Origin: Persephonella sp. IF05-L8
Lineage (GTDB): Bacteria > Aquificota > Aquificia > Aquificales > Hydrogenothermaceae
Length of the DNA stretch: 64,000 bases
Direction: 5' to 3'
NCBI RefSeq assembly: GCF_000703045.1
Contig: NZ_JNLJ01000001.1
Span: 1-64,000, forward strand
The notes below the pieces were generated by a model that ran no database searches, had not been told where the DNA came from, and saw only the letters and a list, made by a program, of their open reading frames with translations. Positions 750 through 10,140 of the stretch are shown here, in pieces. Position 1 is the first letter of the stretch, and every line of letters starts with the position of its first letter. The position numbers and the translations under genes were made by a program.

Positions 750-3704
<2,955 letters not shown>

Positions 3705-4617: not shown

Positions 4618-5940
4618 ATGGCTTTAAAAAAGGCTGATTTAATAATTACTGATATAGACTTTATTCTCACTATGGATGAGGATTTAACTGAATTTAGAAA
4701 TGCAGATATTGTCATAAAAAATGGAAAAATCATAGATATTGGACAGGATAAAAAGAATGAATATTTTGGTAAGACAATCATAGGAAAGGGGAAAATAGCA
4801 ATTCCCGGGCTTATTAACACACACACCCATGCAGCAATGACATTACTTAGAGGGTATGGTAGTGATAATCCTCTCAAGGTATGGCTGGAAGAATATATCT
4901 GGCCAGCAGAAGGGCAGTTTGTCAGTTATGAGTTTGTAAAAGATGGGACAGAGATTGCTGTCTATGAAATGCTCAGAACTGGAACAACAACATTTGTGGA
5001 TATGTATTTTTATGAAAATGCTGTGGCAGATGTTATAAAAGAAGTGGGGATTAGAGGTGTTTTATCAACTGGTATCCTTGATTTTCCAACTCCTGGGGCA
5101 AAAACCCCAGATGAAGGAATAGCAAAGACTATTGATTTTATTAAAGAATACAAAAATCATCCTTATGTTATTCCTGCTATTGGTCCCCATGCTCCTTATA
5201 CCTGTTCACCTGAAACTCTGAAAAAGGCCTATAAAGTGGCTGAAGATTATGATGTTGTATACCACATACATATTGCAGAAACAGAATTTGAGGTTAATAC
5301 AATAAAAGAAAAGTATGGGAAAACGCCGGTTCACCACTTAAATGATATTGGGGTGTTATCCGAAAGAACTCTGGCAGCTCACATGGTTTATCCAACAGAG
5401 GATGAAATAGATATTCTTGCAGATAAAGGGGTAAAGATTGCCCATTGTCCGGAAAGTAATCTAAAACTTGCCTCAGGTGTGGCTCCTGTTCCTGCAATGA
5501 TTGAAAAAGGTGTTAATGTAGCTATAGGCACAGATGGAACTGCATCAAATGACGACCTTGATGTTATAGGTGAAATTTCTACAGCTGCTAAACTTCACAA
5601 AGGAGTTAATAAAAATCCTACCGTTGTAAATGCAAAAGAGGCTCTCCTTATGGCAACCAGATGGGGTGCAAAGGCAATATTGATGGAAAACCAACTTGGT
5701 TCTATTGAGGTTGGAAAGCTGGCTGATATTGTTTTGATTGACATTAATGACCCTCATATAAATCCTGTTTATGACCCTTATACCCAGATTGTATATTCCT
5801 CGAATGGACTGGATGTTGATACGGTTATTGTAAATGGAGAAGTTAAAGTTTTAAATAAAGAAGTTCTGCCTTTTGATAAAGAATATCTGCTTCACAAAGC
5901 AAAATATTGGAAAGAAAAAATTGAAGCCATCAAGAAATAA
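4618..5940 (+). CDS. mtaD: 5-methylthioadenosine/S-adenosylhomocysteine deaminase
   Basis: 440 residues of the amidohydrolase superfamily. It deaminates 5'-methylthioadenosine and S-adenosylhomocysteine to the inosine derivatives, part of SAM by-product salvage in the cytosol. Metal-site motifs are visible: HTH at residues 69-71, HIHIAE at 216-221, AHCPESN near 276-281 and GTDGTASND at 304-312 with the metal Asp at 306. The ATG follows AAGGAGG at a normal distance. It is a single-gene unit on the plus strand, closed by a strong terminator at 5945-5966. Other amidohydrolases (guanine or chlorohydrolase types) are less likely given the VWLEEYIWPAE segment. Confidence 0.93.
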   Translation: MALKKADLIITDIDFILTMDEDLTEFRNADIVIKNGKIIDIGQDKKNEYFGKTIIGKGKIAIPGLINTHTHAAMTLLRGYGSDNPLKVWLEEYIWPAEGQFVSYEFVKDGTEIAVYEMLRTGTTTFVDMYFYENAVADVIKEVGIRGVLSTGILDFPTPGAKTPDEGIAKTIDFIKEYKNHPYVIPAIGPHAPYTCSPETLKKAYKVAEDYDVVYHIHIAETEFEVNTIKEKYGKTPVHHLNDIGVLSERTLAAHMVYPTEDEIDILADKGVKIAHCPESNLKLASGVAPVPAMIEKGVNVAIGTDGTASNDDLDVIGEISTAAKLHKGVNKNPTVVNAKEALLMATRWGAKAILMENQLGSIEVGKLADIVLIDINDPHINPVYDPYTQIVYSSNGLDVDTVIVNGEVKVLNKEVLPFDKEYLLHKAKYWKEKIEAIKK

Positions 5941-5944
5941 TGAG

Positions 5945-5966
5945 AACCCGCTTTTGCGGGTTTTTT
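5945..5966 (+). terminator. Rho-independent terminator after mtaD
   Basis: AACCCGC, loop TTTT, GCGGGTT then TTTT begins four bases after the mtaD stop. It forms a 7-bp GC-rich stem with a T run, oriented for the plus strand. The stop codon of the convergent GTPase gene lies within its T run. Confidence 0.9.
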
Positions 5967-6519
5967 AGAGATATTTTGCTATTTCTTCAAGCAAAATTAA
6001 GAGTGCATTTTTTACACTTTCTTTGTCTTTGGCTACCAATGGGACTACTTTAACATCCTCATCTAAATCCAGAGCAATCCTTATATCTTTAGGGTCCCAT
6101 GCTCCCTTTAAGTCTTGCTTATTACATCCTACAATAAAAGGTGCTGGATATCTTGATTCAAAGTAATTTATTATCCTACGAGCTTCATGGAAAGTCTGGG
6201 GGTCTGTAGAATCAACCAGTACTACCAGTCCTACCATTCCTTTTCCAAGAATATCCCACATAAAATCAAACCTTGACTGTCCTGGTGTTCCAAACAGATA
6301 AAGAACATGTTCATCGTCTATTGTAATTCTACCGAAGTCCATTGCAACAGTAGTATGGTCTTTGACTTCTTTTTCACCTTTTTTTGTGGTTCTTGCTTCT
6401 GTCTGAACAGTTTCTATTTCACTTACTGTGTTAATAAATTGTGTTTTTCCTGCTGCGTAGGGACCTGCTATAACAATTTTGATTTGTTTTTGTTTCGTAT
6501 TCTTTTTTTCTCCTGTCAT
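5965..6519 (-). CDS. Conservon-type (CvnD-like) small GTPase
   Basis: 184 residues, one Ras-like GTPase domain, predicted cytosolic. Visible motifs: P-loop GPYAAGKT (19-26), switch segment DHTTVAMDFGRI (54-65, Thr57 or Thr58), G3 FGTPGQ (76-81), and G4 NKQD (133-136). The sequence after G3 (SRFDFMWDILGKGMVGLVVLVD) follows the pattern of CvnD GTPases of Streptomyces conservons and relatives of MglA. Such GTPases switch state with help of Roadblock proteins. Its ATG overlaps the TAA of the DUF4388 gene (TAATG), so the two are translationally coupled. It is the last gene of the leftward module. The target is not evident from sequence. Confidence 0.85.
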   Translation of the reverse strand: MTGEKKNTKQKQIKIVIAGPYAAGKTQFINTVSEIETVQTEARTTKKGEKEVKDHTTVAMDFGRITIDDEHVLYLFGTPGQSRFDFMWDILGKGMVGLVVLVDSTDPQTFHEARRIINYFESRYPAPFIVGCNKQDLKGAWDPKDIRIALDLDEDVKVVPLVAKDKESVKNALLILLEEIAKYL

Positions 6520-7214
6520 TATAATCCCTTAATCCTTGCTATTATTTTTGATAAAAGCTTTTTGGTAAGTTCAAATCCAATTTTTCTCGTTTTAGGTTTC
6601 TTTCTTCTTATCAGTCCTGTGGCAAGGAAGCCATAAAGTATTCGTTGCAGGGTTAATTTGTTTATACTGGTTTCATTTAAAATATCTTCAACTGTCCTTT
6701 CTCCATCTATAAAGGAAAGGATTTTCTTTTCTGTTTCACTGAGATGGGATTTTTTCGCTATCTCTTCCCAGTTTTCTGTTTTTTCAAACTTGAGTTTCAT
6801 ATCCGAAATTTTACGGTCAACTTCATCCTGGGATAATTGCCTGCTTAAATACATTATTATTTTTTCCAGGGGGATAACTGGCTTTATGTCAGGTGGATAT
6901 TTTATAAAGCCGGGGGTAAATGAGAAATTTCCTTTTTTTACTCCAAGAAGTATAGGAAGACGTGATACCAGATATTGATACATCTCTTCTTTTGTAATTC
7001 CTTCTTTCTGTAATACCTGATTAAAATCCAGGTCAAGATATATATAGAATACCTTCTTTACCTCCCGTATATATACCATATCTCCTTCTTTAAAATAAAC
7101 AGCAAACTTCTTAGCCGGAGACTCTACTACCAGAATTCCATCCTTCTTATCACGTTTTAGTATCTGGAAAATATCAATAAAGTTAAAAGTCTCTAAGTTG
7201 CCAGTTATCGCCAT
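6519..7214 (-). CDS. DUF4388 (PATAN) protein with C-terminal winged-helix-like domain
   Basis: 231 residues, no membrane segment. Residues 1-110 fit DUF4388/PATAN: ITGNLETFNFIDIFQIL, then GILVVES, FAVYFKEGDMVYIRE. Residues about 150-212 (LSETEKKILSFIDGERTVED, then NKLTLQRILYGFLATGLIRR) look like a winged-helix fold, common at the C-terminus of such proteins. DUF4388 proteins occur beside Roadblock and GTPase genes in polarity and motility systems. It is placed like CvnC (DUF742, also winged-helix-like) in conservons, between Roadblock and GTPase. The basic C-terminus (RRKKPKTRK) might contact membrane or nucleic acid; this is speculative. Confidence 0.75.
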   Translation of the reverse strand: MAITGNLETFNFIDIFQILKRDKKDGILVVESPAKKFAVYFKEGDMVYIREVKKVFYIYLDLDFNQVLQKEGITKEEMYQYLVSRLPILLGVKKGNFSFTPGFIKYPPDIKPVIPLEKIIMYLSRQLSQDEVDRKISDMKLKFEKTENWEEIAKKSHLSETEKKILSFIDGERTVEDILNETSINKLTLQRILYGFLATGLIRRKKPKTRKIGFELTKKLLSKIIARIKGL

Positions 7215-7224
7215 ATTCTAACCT

Positions 7225-7581
7225 TTAAATCAAATTCTCCTCTATTTGTTTAGCTGCTCTTTTAATCTCCATAAGTAATAATCCTAACTTTGCATCTGCA
7301 GGGGCTAATATACCTAAAACTGCTAAATCCCCAATTCCTGTAAATATCATATATCCTTTAGTCCCTTTCACATATAATTGCTCTAAGTTTCCTTTGTTTA
7401 GTTCGCTTGTAACCCTTTCCCCAAGTGAAAGTATCGCTGCACCCATAGCAGCAACTCTATCTTCATCTACTCCCTCAGGCAATATGGAAGCTATTGCTAA
7501 GCCATCGGGACTGACAAGTACTGCTCCTTCTGCACCTGAATTTCTTACTACACTTTGAAGAATTTCATCAAACCTTGCCAT
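7225..7581 (-). CDS. Roadblock/LC7 domain protein (MglB/CvnB-like)
   Basis: 118 residues from the ATG at 7581, which sits five bases after AAGGAGGT; a longer GTG reading from 7602 would bury that site. The whole protein is one Roadblock/LC7 domain: FDEILQSVVRNSGAEGAVLV, SPDGLAIAS, AAMGAAILSLGERV, then GDLAVLGILAPADAKLGLLL. Bacterial Roadblock proteins such as MglB and CvnB dimerise and act as GTPase-activating or scaffolding partners of small GTPases, which fits the GTPase encoded two genes downstream. The final helix (MEIKRAAKQIEENL) is typical. Confidence 0.9.
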   Translation of the reverse strand: MARFDEILQSVVRNSGAEGAVLVSPDGLAIASILPEGVDEDRVAAMGAAILSLGERVTSELNKGNLEQLYVKGTKGYMIFTGIGDLAVLGILAPADAKLGLLLMEIKRAAKQIEENLI

Positions 7582-7650
7582 CTCAACCTCCTTAGTGTAC
7601 ACAAACTTTAGTAGTATATTCTAATTTATACAGCTATAACAGAATTTATA

Positions 7651-8790
7651 TCATAAAAACTTAGATGTTTTCTTAATAAAGTTTTCCTTTCTCTTAGTAT
7701 CTATAATATCAGTTAATAACTTTTTTATTAAGTTGTCCAGTTGTTTTTGTGTTATCTTTTCGGGGTCTATATTTAACTCTTTTAGTCTTTTTTTGAATAA
7801 GAAATTACCAATAGGTCCTATCTCCATTACCAGTGCTTCTCTTACTTTTTCTAAAACAGAGGGGTCAAAGTATTCATATTCTTCTACTGGAGGTAATATC
7901 GGCTCTATTTCTTTTTCTTCCTCTTCTTTTTCTTCTTCTTTGTCGGCTACTTCTTCTGTTTCTTCTACTTTTTCTTTGTTTTCTTCCTTTTGTTCTTCTT
8001 GGTGTTGTAGTTCATCTACACCTAATATCTCTTCTAAGGAAGGTATGTCTTCTTCTATTGTTTCTTCTTTTTTGGTTGTATTTTTTTCTTCTTCTTTCTC
8101 CTCCGAAGGGGTAGACAGGACATTTTCTAATTCAGGAATATCCTCTGTTTGTTTTTCTTCTTGAGCTTTTTCTATTTCCTCTATATCTTCTATAAATTTA
8201 TCCCGAACATCGGCTACTGTAATTTCTGTTTTCTCGTCTTCAAGTTCTGGTATTTCCTTTTCCAACGGAACTATTTCTATAGTTTCTTCCGTATGTTCAA
8301 GATTGTTTCTTTCTAATACAGGAGATGTTTCTAAAATGGAAGGTGTTTCTGACGAGGCTATAGGTTTAGATGGTTCTGTTATTTTTTGGGGTTCTGAACC
8401 TTCTGGAAGTTTTTCTTCTTTATCACTTCCCATATAAAGTTCACGGATTTTTTTTGCTGCTGCAATATGAACAAGCTTTAGAAGGGCGAATTTTATATCT
8501 CCTTCTATTATAGAGGCTATAGAGATTTCAGGGGTAACAAATATAACAAAGATAGATATATCTTTTCCCTCGGCATAAATATATTCTTCTCCAAAATCTT
8601 CAATAATTTCATTGGTTTGGTGTCCTCTCTCTATTATGAGTTTGATTAATTCAGAGAGATATTTTTCTTTTTCAGGATAGACTGTCCTGACTATTTCCTC
8701 TTCATTTTCCCTAAAAATACCACTGAAAGAAGCTCCCGTTTCTGTATATAGCTTATCAAGTATCTGTTTTAACTTGCTATCAAGTTCCAT
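7651..8790 (-). CDS. Acidic signalling protein: Roadblock-like N-terminus, Glu-rich linker, helical C-terminus
   Basis: 379 residues in three parts. Residues 1-120 look Roadblock-like (LDKLYTETGASFSGIF, then IFVIFVTPEISIASII and a helix LLKLVHIAAAKKI). Residues about 125-305 are a very acidic, Glu-rich, low-complexity linker with repeated short LEEILG/IPELEN-like motifs, probably disordered or coiled. Residues 310-379 form a compact helical domain with EIGPIGNFLFKKRLKEL and LLTDIIDTKRKENF; similar IGPI-type ends occur in other bacterial signalling proteins. The start has a GGGGGAG ribosome site. It probably tethers the downstream Roadblock-GTPase pair to the upstream membrane protein; this is inference from gene order. 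Confidence 0.6.
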   Translation of the reverse strand: MELDSKLKQILDKLYTETGASFSGIFRENEEEIVRTVYPEKEKYLSELIKLIIERGHQTNEIIEDFGEEYIYAEGKDISIFVIFVTPEISIASIIEGDIKFALLKLVHIAAAKKIRELYMGSDKEEKLPEGSEPQKITEPSKPIASSETPSILETSPVLERNNLEHTEETIEIVPLEKEIPELEDEKTEITVADVRDKFIEDIEEIEKAQEEKQTEDIPELENVLSTPSEEKEEEKNTTKKEETIEEDIPSLEEILGVDELQHQEEQKEENKEKVEETEEVADKEEEKEEEEKEIEPILPPVEEYEYFDPSVLEKVREALVMEIGPIGNFLFKKRLKELNIDPEKITQKQLDNLIKKLLTDIIDTKRKENFIKKTSKFL

Positions 8791-8804
8791 GTCTCCCCCA
8801 CAGC

Positions 8805-9194
8805 TCAGAAATCATCCTCTTCAAGTTTTTCTATTATAGTTTTCATACTTATTCTCATTCTTTCAAACGATTTAGCTAATTCTGCTAATTCATTATCTCC
8901 TTCTATATTTATTTCATAATCCAGATTTCCCATACTAACTTCTTTCAATGCATTGGTAACTTCTTGAACTTTAGATATTATATACTTTTCTATCATTGCT
9001 CTGATAAGATATACAGGAATAAGAAAGGCAATCTGTATTATAATTATAGAATAAATAGCTTTAATTAGAGCATCTTCTACTTTTGCTGAGTTTAGAAGGA
9101 AATAGACCAGAACTCCTACAAAAAGGGAACCAATAATAGAACCACCAAATACTATCCAGGATATTTCATCTAAAATAGACTTTTTATTTACCAT
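8805..9194 (-). CDS. Two-helix membrane protein ending in a HAMP domain
   Basis: 129 residues from ATG 9194, preceded by GGAGGAG. Two membrane helices (about 12-34 and 41-66) flank a very short external loop, followed by a HAMP domain at about 69-120 (ISKVQEVTNALKEVSMGNLD, then GDNELAELAKSFERMRISMK) and a short acidic tail. There is no kinase, cyclase or chemoreceptor output domain. HAMP normally transmits signals to a fused output, so this one probably works through the protein encoded next, 14 bases downstream. Its place matches the membrane sensor CvnA in conservons, but stripped of the ATPase part. Confidence 0.8.
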   Translation of the reverse strand: MVNKKSILDEISWIVFGGSIIGSLFVGVLVYFLLNSAKVEDALIKAIYSIIIIQIAFLIPVYLIRAMIEKYIISKVQEVTNALKEVSMGNLDYEINIEGDNELAELAKSFERMRISMKTIIEKLEEDDF

Positions 9195-9224: not shown

Positions 9225-9725
9225 TTAACTGTTTCTTTCTTTTCGACTTCTTAAGAAATAATATTGAAACAAATAAACTTCAATGGCAAGATTAAATAAA
9301 TTTACCAGGCTTGAGATGGTATGTAGGGTCTTGAATTTTGAGTGAATTTTTTCTGCATCTGCTTTTTTTTCTTCCTGGAGAAGTTGATAGTACTGGTGGT
9401 TTAGGGTTCTTGCCATAGGAAGTACTGTTTTATGAAGAGCCATATGGGATAAAATCAGTATGGAAAGAGCGATTATAAAACCTAAATATCTTCTTATTAT
9501 TCCTTTATCTTTTATGGATTTTATGCCTATAAATGTATAAATAACTACTCCTACTACCCAGCCAGATGCAAAATAATAAGGAAATATTAAATTCATTATA
9601 TCGCCAGCTGTTTTCTTATCAAAATGGGAAAAGATTACAGGGGCTACCACAAAGGTAGTCCAGATATTCGCCCCTATTAAGATACCTATAAGTAGTAAAA
9701 TTAATACATCTATATACTTACTCAA
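9225..9725 (-). CDS. DUF4149 family membrane protein
   Basis: 166 residues with four predicted membrane helices (about 4-26, 48-68, 79-98, 138-158). The first helix has GANIWTTFVVAPVIF and the middle has LSHMALHKTVLPMARTLNH, which fit the DUF4149/TMEM205-like family, whose function is unknown. The start is TTG overlapping the ndk stop by eight bases, with AGGT upstream, indicating coupling to ndk. It lies between ndk and the HAMP gene, 30 bases from the latter, so the signalling module may be transcribed from the ndk side. Confidence 0.75.
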   Translation of the reverse strand: MSKYIDVLILLLIGILIGANIWTTFVVAPVIFSHFDKKTAGDIMNLIFPYYFASGWVVGVVIYTFIGIKSIKDKGIIRRYLGFIIALSILILSHMALHKTVLPMARTLNHQYYQLLQEEKKADAEKIHSKFKTLHTISSLVNLFNLAIEVYLFQYYFLRSRKERNS

Positions 9726-10140
9726 CTATTTCTAACCTGCTGAAGAAAAAGGGTATTTCATAGTCTGCTGATTTCTTAGAGTCTGAACCATGAACAGCAT
9801 TTTCACCGATGTTTGTTCCATATAACTTTCTTAAAGTTCCTTCTGCAGCTTCTTCAGGATTAGTTGCTCCCATAATTTCTCTTATTCTTTCTATTGCATT
9901 TTCTCCTTCCCATACCATAGCAACAATAGGACCTGAAGACATAAATTCGCATAATTCTTCATAAAAAGGTCTTTCTTTATGAACTATATAAAATTGTGCA
10001 GCCTGTTCTTTTGTTAATTTTAGTTTTTTAAGGGCAACAAGCTTAAATCCTTTTTCCTGAACATGAGCAATAATTTTTCCTTCAACTCCTTTTCTTACTG
10101 CATCAGGTTTGATTAACATTAATGTTCTTTCTACTGCCAT
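9718..10140 (-). CDS. ndk: Nucleoside diphosphate kinase
   Basis: 140 residues, full length. It transfers the gamma phosphate of ATP to NDPs through a phosphohistidine. The catalytic His is H117 in NAVHGSDS, and the N-terminus TLMLIKPDAVRKG and the RPFYEELCEFM segment are classic. The ATG directly follows the TAA of the 43-residue peptide gene, whose 3' end supplies its GGAGG ribosome site. Ndk sits upstream of a GTPase module, a suggestive but unproven link since it makes GTP. Confidence 0.97.
   Translation of the reverse strand: MAVERTLMLIKPDAVRKGVEGKIIAHVQEKGFKLVALKKLKLTKEQAAQFYIVHKERPFYEELCEFMSSGPIVAMVWEGENAIERIREIMGATNPEEAAEGTLRKLYGTNIGENAVHGSDSKKSADYEIPFFFSRLEIVE

Follow-up and report, generated by a model that had tools for sequence, protein, structure and literature searches.

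A five-gene operon in the window, the 64,000-nucleotide stretch of DNA from the heat-loving bacterium Persephonella sp. IF05-L8 that was analysed, probably codes for a small-GTPase switch at the membrane whose receptor has no kinase; the complete chain from HAMP through STAC and Roadblock domains to the GTPase is favoured here with moderate confidence. Because the HAMP protein is nearest to Af1503 and the C terminus of the adjacent adaptor resembles Af1502 and its STAC domain, the front end appears to be of a different known kind than CvnA. As far as sequence tells, the operon is conservon-like in layout and is not a conservon.

Organization and conservation of the operon

As the preliminary description had it, five leftward genes with coupled or short spacers occupy this region; all five open reading frames lie on the minus strand (Table 1), and Pfam recognizes DUF4388, Robl_LC7, and HAMP among their products. 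The gaps measure 14 nt between the HAMP and adaptor genes, 48 to 69 nt between the adaptor and Roadblock genes, and 10 nt between the Roadblock and DUF4388 genes, and the DUF4388 and GTPase genes overlap by 1 nt. The GTG at 7602 is a less likely start of the Roadblock gene than the ATG at 7581. The window and 19 of 20 related Hydrogenothermaceae loci keep order, strand, and short gaps; in the remaining locus a contig end interrupts the module. This recurrence excludes a chance arrangement and shows that the genes stay together throughout the family. The upstream DUF4149 gene is probably on the same transcript as the module; nothing ties its protein to the GTPase switch.

Table 1. Features of the operon and its surroundings
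Feature	Position	Strand	Remarks
Nucleoside diphosphate kinase gene	9718-10140	-	conserved, upstream of DUF4149 gene
DUF4149 membrane protein gene	9225-9725	-	conserved upstream neighbour
HAMP membrane protein gene	8805-9194/9206	-	
Adaptor gene	7651-8790	-	acidic, 379 aa
Adaptor Roadblock-2 domain, residues 1-120	8431-8790	-	predicted; AlphaFold model and structure/profile matches
Adaptor acidic linker, residues 121-305	7876-8430	-	pLDDT mostly low
Adaptor STAC-like domain, residues 306-379	7654-7875	-	predicted; four helices, EIGPIG motif
Roadblock/LC7 gene	7225-7602	-	MglB/CvnB type; ATG at 7581 favoured by relatives
DUF4388-winged-helix gene	6519-7214	-	231 aa; DUF4388 PATAN-type
DUF4388 domain	about 6828-7205	-	Pfam PF14332, 4.5e-21
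Winged helix	about 6585-6752	-	homology to winged helix of Calditrichota STAC proteins
GTPase gene	5965-6519	-	predicted Ras-like MglA-family small GTPase, 184 aa
Hairpin AACCCGC-AAAA-GCGGGTT	5945-5962		3' of GTPase gene; common to convergent gene 4618-5940

The putative receptor and adaptor

Af1503 is a HAMP-terminated receptor encoded next to Af1502, the founder of the STAC domain, and was the source of the first HAMP structure. The HAMP protein of the window (Pfam HAMP, 2e-9) consists of two transmembrane helices with almost no periplasmic loop, followed by HAMP and the end of the protein. HAMP is its sole cytosolic part, with neither a kinase nor an MCP domain, and outside the membrane it has only the short loop between the two helices and no sensor domain. 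Relatives in the Aquificaceae and Calditrichota do carry one, Tll0287-like and Cache, respectively, and every STAC-adjacent copy measured ends 0 to 6 residues past HAMP. A comparison of the HAMP profile with solved structures ranked Af1503 first (2.4e-7). Kinase-less receptors of the Af1503 type have no recognisable effector module (PMC4834066).

The acidic adaptor gave no domain match in Pfam or NCBIfam. The AlphaFold model of its Roadblock-2 domain has MglB as best solved-structure matches (6hjm, TMt 0.85, prob 1.00), and profile-profile comparison with Group 1 MglB gave a probability of 93 (E 3.4e-7). Model and profile together support an MglB-like Roadblock at the N terminus, in keeping with the earlier proposal that the adaptor is Roadblock-like. 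The C-terminal domain is predicted by AF2 to be a four-helix bundle (pLDDT 88), for which Foldseek placed Af1502 first with a probability of 0.95 and an E value of 0.5, four-helix bundles being common. Af1502 was also first in a profile search of all PDB sequences, with 3.3e-4 over 30 positions and the next entry at 0.42. These profiles and the model suggest a remote match. The published STAC motif, LGPx(x)A, lies between helices 1 and 2 (PMC4834066), and G-P is invariant in the STAC-like domains, with MEIGPIGN in the window and VLGPVAG in the Calditrichota. DUF8082, another candidate for this domain, was dropped, having no Pfam support.

GTPase, Roadblock, and DUF4388 proteins

The GTPase presents the motifs GPYAAGKTQ, HTTVAMDFG, LFGTPGQ, and NKQD. 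Pfam matched it to ATP_bind_1, Arf, and Ras; ATP_bind_1, the best of these, was dropped as its family, as PDB matches, motifs, and the tree point to MglA/Arf-type GTPases. GTPGQ in G3 and a threonine replacing the Group 1 arginine in G2 are common to MglA Groups 2 to 5 (PMC4316618). In a tree built without published Group 5 reference sequences, a split with 100/100 support sets the protein apart from Group 1, and it lies outside the separate 100/100 clade formed by the Actinobacterial CvnD sequences. Judged by these features, it is a Ras-like MglA-family switch that may be Group 5-like, and its earlier placement with MglA and CvnD and not with metabolic ATPases is upheld by the tree. Its Aquificaceae orthologues lie beside Roadblock and DUF4388 genes, with neither STAC nor a clear HAMP gene.

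The stand-alone Roadblock protein matches Pfam Robl_LC7 (PF03259, 5.7e-19) and the cvnB5 structure (2.3e-9) and carries the Asp-Gly pair of Group 2 to 5 partners. The DUF4388-winged-helix gene occupies the slot of CvnC in conservons, and profile comparison of its winged helix gave a probability of 96.6 with the winged helix on Calditrichota STAC proteins and weak similarity to CvnC (25 to 62). A 2014 study already remarked on PATAN-type DUF4388 proteins in the neighbourhood of MglA from Groups 1 and 5 (PMC4316618). A tblastn search of plasmids with the DUF4388 protein gave no match, and full-text literature searches retrieved no paper for DUF4388 with Roadblock and GTPase and nothing related for DUF4388 alone.

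STAC-HAMP pairs in other lineages

Of 78 loci that could be assessed, about 74 encode a STAC-like domain beside a HAMP-terminated receptor, and the gene pair was found in four families or phyla. It accompanies a Group 5-like GTPase in the Hydrogenothermaceae, and mglB with a different, Group 1 mglA in the Aquificaceae and Calditrichota. In the Desulfurobacteriaceae, as in one Aquificaceae locus (L215), it has no adjacent Roadblock or GTPase gene, so that STAC-HAMP may have partners other than a GTPase. A Calditrichota locus is among the matches listed in a HAMP-profile scan of genome contigs. Operons of this phylum contain Robl2, wHTH-STAC, Cache-HAMP, and MglB in 29 to 30 of 30 loci, with MglA present where the flank is long enough and REC and DUF4388-like genes ahead in several; the assignment of their upstream Roadblock-2 is weak (best, 21 bits). 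Fusions also join these domains, as Robl2-STAC in the window, DUF4388-wHTH-STAC in the Desulfurobacteriaceae, and a further Robl-STAC open reading frame in another phylum. Searches for STAC found it in 2 of 189 genomes of the phylum of a deltaproteobacterial MAG and in none of 151 of the phylum of a Chloroflexota genome.

Proposed mechanism and alternatives

From these parts we infer the following path. The HAMP protein would be a homodimeric receptor of the Af1503 type, with the STAC-like domain of the adaptor as its partner, as Af1502 couples to Af1503. The acidic linker would keep the MglB-like Roadblock domain close to the membrane, and this domain may pair or compete with the stand-alone Roadblock protein, the putative GAP on the MglA-family GTPase. 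The DUF4388-winged-helix protein may be an effector or may promote nucleotide exchange, the role reported for MfpC. Rearrangement of HAMP would in this way shift the GTPase between its GTP and GDP forms with no phosphotransfer step. A polar or surface machine, type IV pili for example, is the probable output. PilT occurs in 101 of 101 Aquificota genomes, which does not separate the hypotheses. Two Hydrogenothermaceae genomes with the module, G051 and G072, gave no match to FliG, so flagella are apparently not a required output.

An output in transcription, with the DUF4388-winged-helix protein binding DNA under control of the GTPase, is unlikely. The homology of the winged-helix region across Aquificota and Calditrichota would suit it, as would the predicted winged-helix partner of Group 3 MglA systems (PMC4316618), but Calditrichota and Desulfurobacteriaceae have this winged helix in one protein with STAC, fitting a protein-interaction role, and MfpC, a CvnC homologue, is reported as a likely GEF and MfpD as a GAP (PMC13343842). 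It is improbable that HAMP-STAC controls solute transport, as proposed for Af1503/Af1502, with the GTPase genes as neighbours that have a separate job. While a role of STAC in transport control has been proposed (PMC4834066), some STAC-HAMP pairs have no GTPase gene beside them, and a DUF4149 membrane protein is encoded next door, the STAC domain of the window is fused to a Roadblock domain, and two phyla have STAC-HAMP within mgl operons whose GTPases belong to two different groups.

That the operon is a true variant of the Actinobacterial CvnABCD type, which lost its sensor kinase and replaced CvnC by DUF4388, is very improbable, since the shared slot order (sensor, Roadblock, third protein, and GTPase, as in Streptomyces, Nocardia, and Kitasatospora) and the faint resemblance of the winged helix to CvnC are set against a GTPase outside the CvnD clade, an Af1503-like receptor of a type that elsewhere pairs with Group 1 MglA, and one extra adaptor gene. 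A CvnB-type Roadblock is present, and a CvnA with HAMP and histidine-kinase module, a DUF742 CvnC, and a CvnD within the MglA Group 2 clade are absent. The preliminary view of a kinase-less variant signalling through the adaptor is largely supported, whereas the name conservon is not.

Fusion and operon tie STAC-HAMP to Roadblock proteins and Ras-like GTPases in two phyla. With STAC-HAMP joined to two MglA groups in Aquificota and Calditrichota, we tentatively suggest, at somewhat less than even chances, that HAMP-terminated receptors form a general bacterial, perhaps archaeal, class, a simple analogue of GPCRs, that reaches Ras-like GTPases by way of STAC adaptors and Roadblock proteins and needs no kinase. 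The module suggests a testable target for receptors that have no known downstream partner, although the original STAC paper may mention such loci, and offers a candidate receptor for MglA-family switches outside Myxococcus and Actinobacteria. It joins two poorly understood domains, DUF4388/PATAN and STAC, in one system and would make the old question of Af1503 accessible to simple assays of binding and GTP hydrolysis, for which the proteins are thermostable.

Comparison with known systems

Conservons (CvnABCD; Mfp) share with the module a membrane HAMP protein, a Roadblock, a small third protein, and a GTPGQ GTPase in the same slots, whereas the module has neither kinase nor DUF742, adds a Roadblock-STAC adaptor, and has its GTPase in a separate clade. 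MglA/MglB of Myxococcus and Thermus likewise combine a Roadblock partner with an MglA-family GTPase, and the adaptor N terminus is MglB-like; however, the GTPase of the window lacks the Group 1 arginine, and receptor and STAC adaptor are foreign to the known Myxococcus system. In Thermus plasmid clusters, a DUF4388 gene overlaps or abuts the GTPase gene with a Roadblock nearby, and Deinococcus clusters are similar, the abutting gene being annotated as hypothetical, but Protoglobin/EAL or other neighbours stand in place of HAMP-STAC. Af1503/Af1502 of Archaeoglobus fulgidus, which rank first among solved structures for the HAMP protein and the C-terminal domain of the adaptor, are alike in that HAMP is the sole cytosolic part of the receptor and a four-helix domain with a GP motif is encoded next to it. 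They differ in that the STAC domain of the window is joined to a Roadblock by an acidic linker, the receptor has no periplasmic domain, and the operon, with no recognised transporter gene, adds a Roadblock, a DUF4388 protein, and a Ras-like GTPase.

Organization and conservation of the module

The five open reading frames of the preliminary description lie on the minus strand, at the positions proposed and with short gaps. Pfam recognized HAMP, Robl_LC7, DUF4388, and a GTPase family among their products, and the 379-residue acidic protein gave zero Pfam matches. Nucleoside diphosphate kinase and DUF4149 genes lie upstream in nearly all Hydrogenothermaceae, the former being a possible GTP supply link to the module.

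The GTPase served as query against 101 Aquificota genomes, and the neighborhoods of its matches were retrieved. The expectation that the five genes are constant neighbors was borne out, as 19 of 20 relatives within the Hydrogenothermaceae have them in an uninterrupted row on a single strand, the remaining locus sitting at a contig end. The parts of the module, their order, and their recurrence are established. Aquificaceae retain the Roadblock-DUF4388-GTPase trio, with the HAMP and adaptor genes substituted by a protein with two transmembrane helices and a coiled coil in some genera and by a permease-like gene in others. On Thermus plasmids, a DUF4388 gene adjoins an MglA-type GTPase gene with a Roadblock gene close by; on Deinococcus plasmids, also with a Roadblock gene close by, the gene abutting the GTPase is annotated merely as hypothetical.

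Features of the module, its surroundings, and related loci
Feature	Coordinates	Remarks
Five-gene module	5965-9194	Minus strand
Convergent gene	4618-5940	Closes module downstream, with common hairpin
Hairpin	5945-5962	Common to GTPase end and convergent gene; closes unit
DUF4149 gene		Upstream, same direction; conserved
Nucleoside diphosphate kinase gene	9718-10140	Upstream, same direction; conserved
Probable rRNA operon	~2494-3589	ORFs overlap on both strands, as over rRNA genes
Paralogous GTPase, 77-aa ORF, Roadblock	L073:5903-9128	Own genome, C1 ~640-643 kb
Second short HAMP-terminated membrane protein	L228:1219-1680	Own genome, C1 ~837 kb; ends DRMRMSLKVIIEKLENEEL; adjoins small CxxCH protein
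HAMP-terminated Tll0287-like receptors	L120:2773-3684, L121:6537-7439, L125:6647-7558	Aquificaceae; adjoin Group 1 mglBA
Two successive naked HAMP proteins, then STAC protein	L215:4718-6201	Aquificaceae
Roadblock-2-STAC ORF	L233:1507-2253	Protein-kinase-like gene nearby

The GTPase and the two Roadblock domains

The GTPase carries the motifs GPYAAGKT, TTVAMDFG, FGTPGQ, and NKQD, which place it in MglA Groups 2-5 and not in Group 1 by published criteria (Wuichet and Sogaard-Andersen, PMC4316618). Aquificae members have been assigned to Groups 1 and 5, with PATAN-domain neighbors recorded (PMC4316618). In a 68-sequence tree, its clade stands apart from Group 1 (support of 100/100) and outside the Actinobacterial CvnD clade (100/100). 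We label it Group 5-like, because the tree contains no reference Group 5 sequences. The paralogous trio of the same genome (L073) lies directly 5' of a protoglobin-CZB-GGDEF-EAL gene, with ATP synthase genes upstream; Thermus plasmids likewise group GTPase, Roadblock, and protoglobin genes, one with an EAL gene too.

The folds of the module proteins are predicted. In an AlphaFold2 model of the adaptor (19 homologues), the N- and C-terminal domains are confident and the acidic middle is of low confidence. The N terminus resembles MglB in Foldseek (6hjm; TMt, 0.85; prob, 1.00) and matches Aquificaceae Group 1 MglB in profile comparison (prob, 93; E, 3.4e-7), and therefore the module encodes two Roadblock domains.

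A front end resembling Af1503/Af1502

Modeled in isolation, the C-terminal domain forms four helices (pLDDT, 88), and its top Foldseek match is Af1502 (prob, 0.95; E, 0.5). Its profile also ranked AF1502 first among all PDB sequences (E, 3.3e-4; runner-up, 0.42), and that of the HAMP protein ranked AF1503 first (2.4e-7), a receptor overrepresented among solved HAMP domains. Af1503 is an archaeal receptor whose sole cytosolic part is a HAMP domain, and the adjoining gene encodes the STAC protein Af1502 (PMC4834066). Each match is remote taken alone; no single argument for this identity is stronger than the convergence of separate searches on two adjacent genes of one organism.

The 80-residue domain profile matches an approximately 380-residue Aquificaceae protein encoded directly 3' of Group 1 mglBA (E, 8e-19 to 1e-16) and a winged-helix protein (1e-5) at a Calditrichota locus that was among the matches listed in an earlier HAMP profile scan. 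In whole-genome searches, all 40 Calditrichota genomes and 62 of the 101 from Aquificota carried the domain. A HAMP-terminated membrane protein is encoded beside it in about 74 of 78 retrieved loci, counted by hand with double-retrieved loci merged, further loci added, and contig ends excluded (a script gave 74/82 before merging, the matching 74s being coincidental).

Outside the membrane, these receptors have no domain in Hydrogenothermaceae, a Tll0287-like domain in Desulfurobacteriaceae, a single Cache domain in Calditrichota, and in Aquificaceae a Tll0287-like domain with a CxxCH motif or, in one copy, a double Cache domain. CxxCH, a possible c-type heme site, is present in both fully read receptors of the three adjoining Group 1 mglBA. 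Neither Roadblock nor GTPase genes lie near the HAMP-HAMP-STAC genes of L215. The second HAMP protein of the genome (L228), whose adjoining genes gave no match in a STAC profile search of the genome, could feed the same adaptor as the module.

Recombined parts in other lineages

Calditrichota loci combine Roadblock-2 (29 of 30 loci; matches weak but consistent), winged-helix-STAC, Cache-HAMP, and MglB genes, with MglA wherever the retrieved flank was long enough. The winged helix of their STAC protein and that of the window DUF4388 protein are homologues (prob, 96.6). Several of their mgl operons (L236, L237, L239, L240, and L241) begin with stand-alone REC-like and DUF4388-like genes, beside which no kinase was recognized. 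Desulfurobacteriaceae carry DUF4388 (Pfam, 1.6e-13), winged helix, and STAC in a single chain, and Roadblock-2 and STAC profiles match a single ORF (L233) in one genome in the phylum of a deltaproteobacterial MAG. Such fusions and reshuffled orders of the same parts are the trace that a functional unit would leave.

Proposed mechanism and comparison with known systems

Interactions among the module proteins, and their function, are inferred. In the mycobacterial Mfp system, GAP activity belongs to the CvnB homologue, and the CvnC homologue probably serves as GEF (PMC13343842). By gene position, the window Roadblock would act as GAP and the DUF4388-winged-helix protein as GEF or effector; profile comparison of CvnC with this winged helix gave weak similarity (prob, 25 to 62). 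The output could plausibly be type IV pili, because the pilus motor PilB1 of Synechocystis is a binding partner of PATAN proteins (PMC9090330) and every one of the 101 Aquificota genomes has PilT.

The module resembles an MglA-type switch fitted with an Af1503/STAC front end, a link of which we found no description in the open-access literature searched. The preliminary description called it conservon-like, which stands for the outline of its working; compared with the Actinobacterial conservon, the module is alike in that outline but is not itself a conservon.
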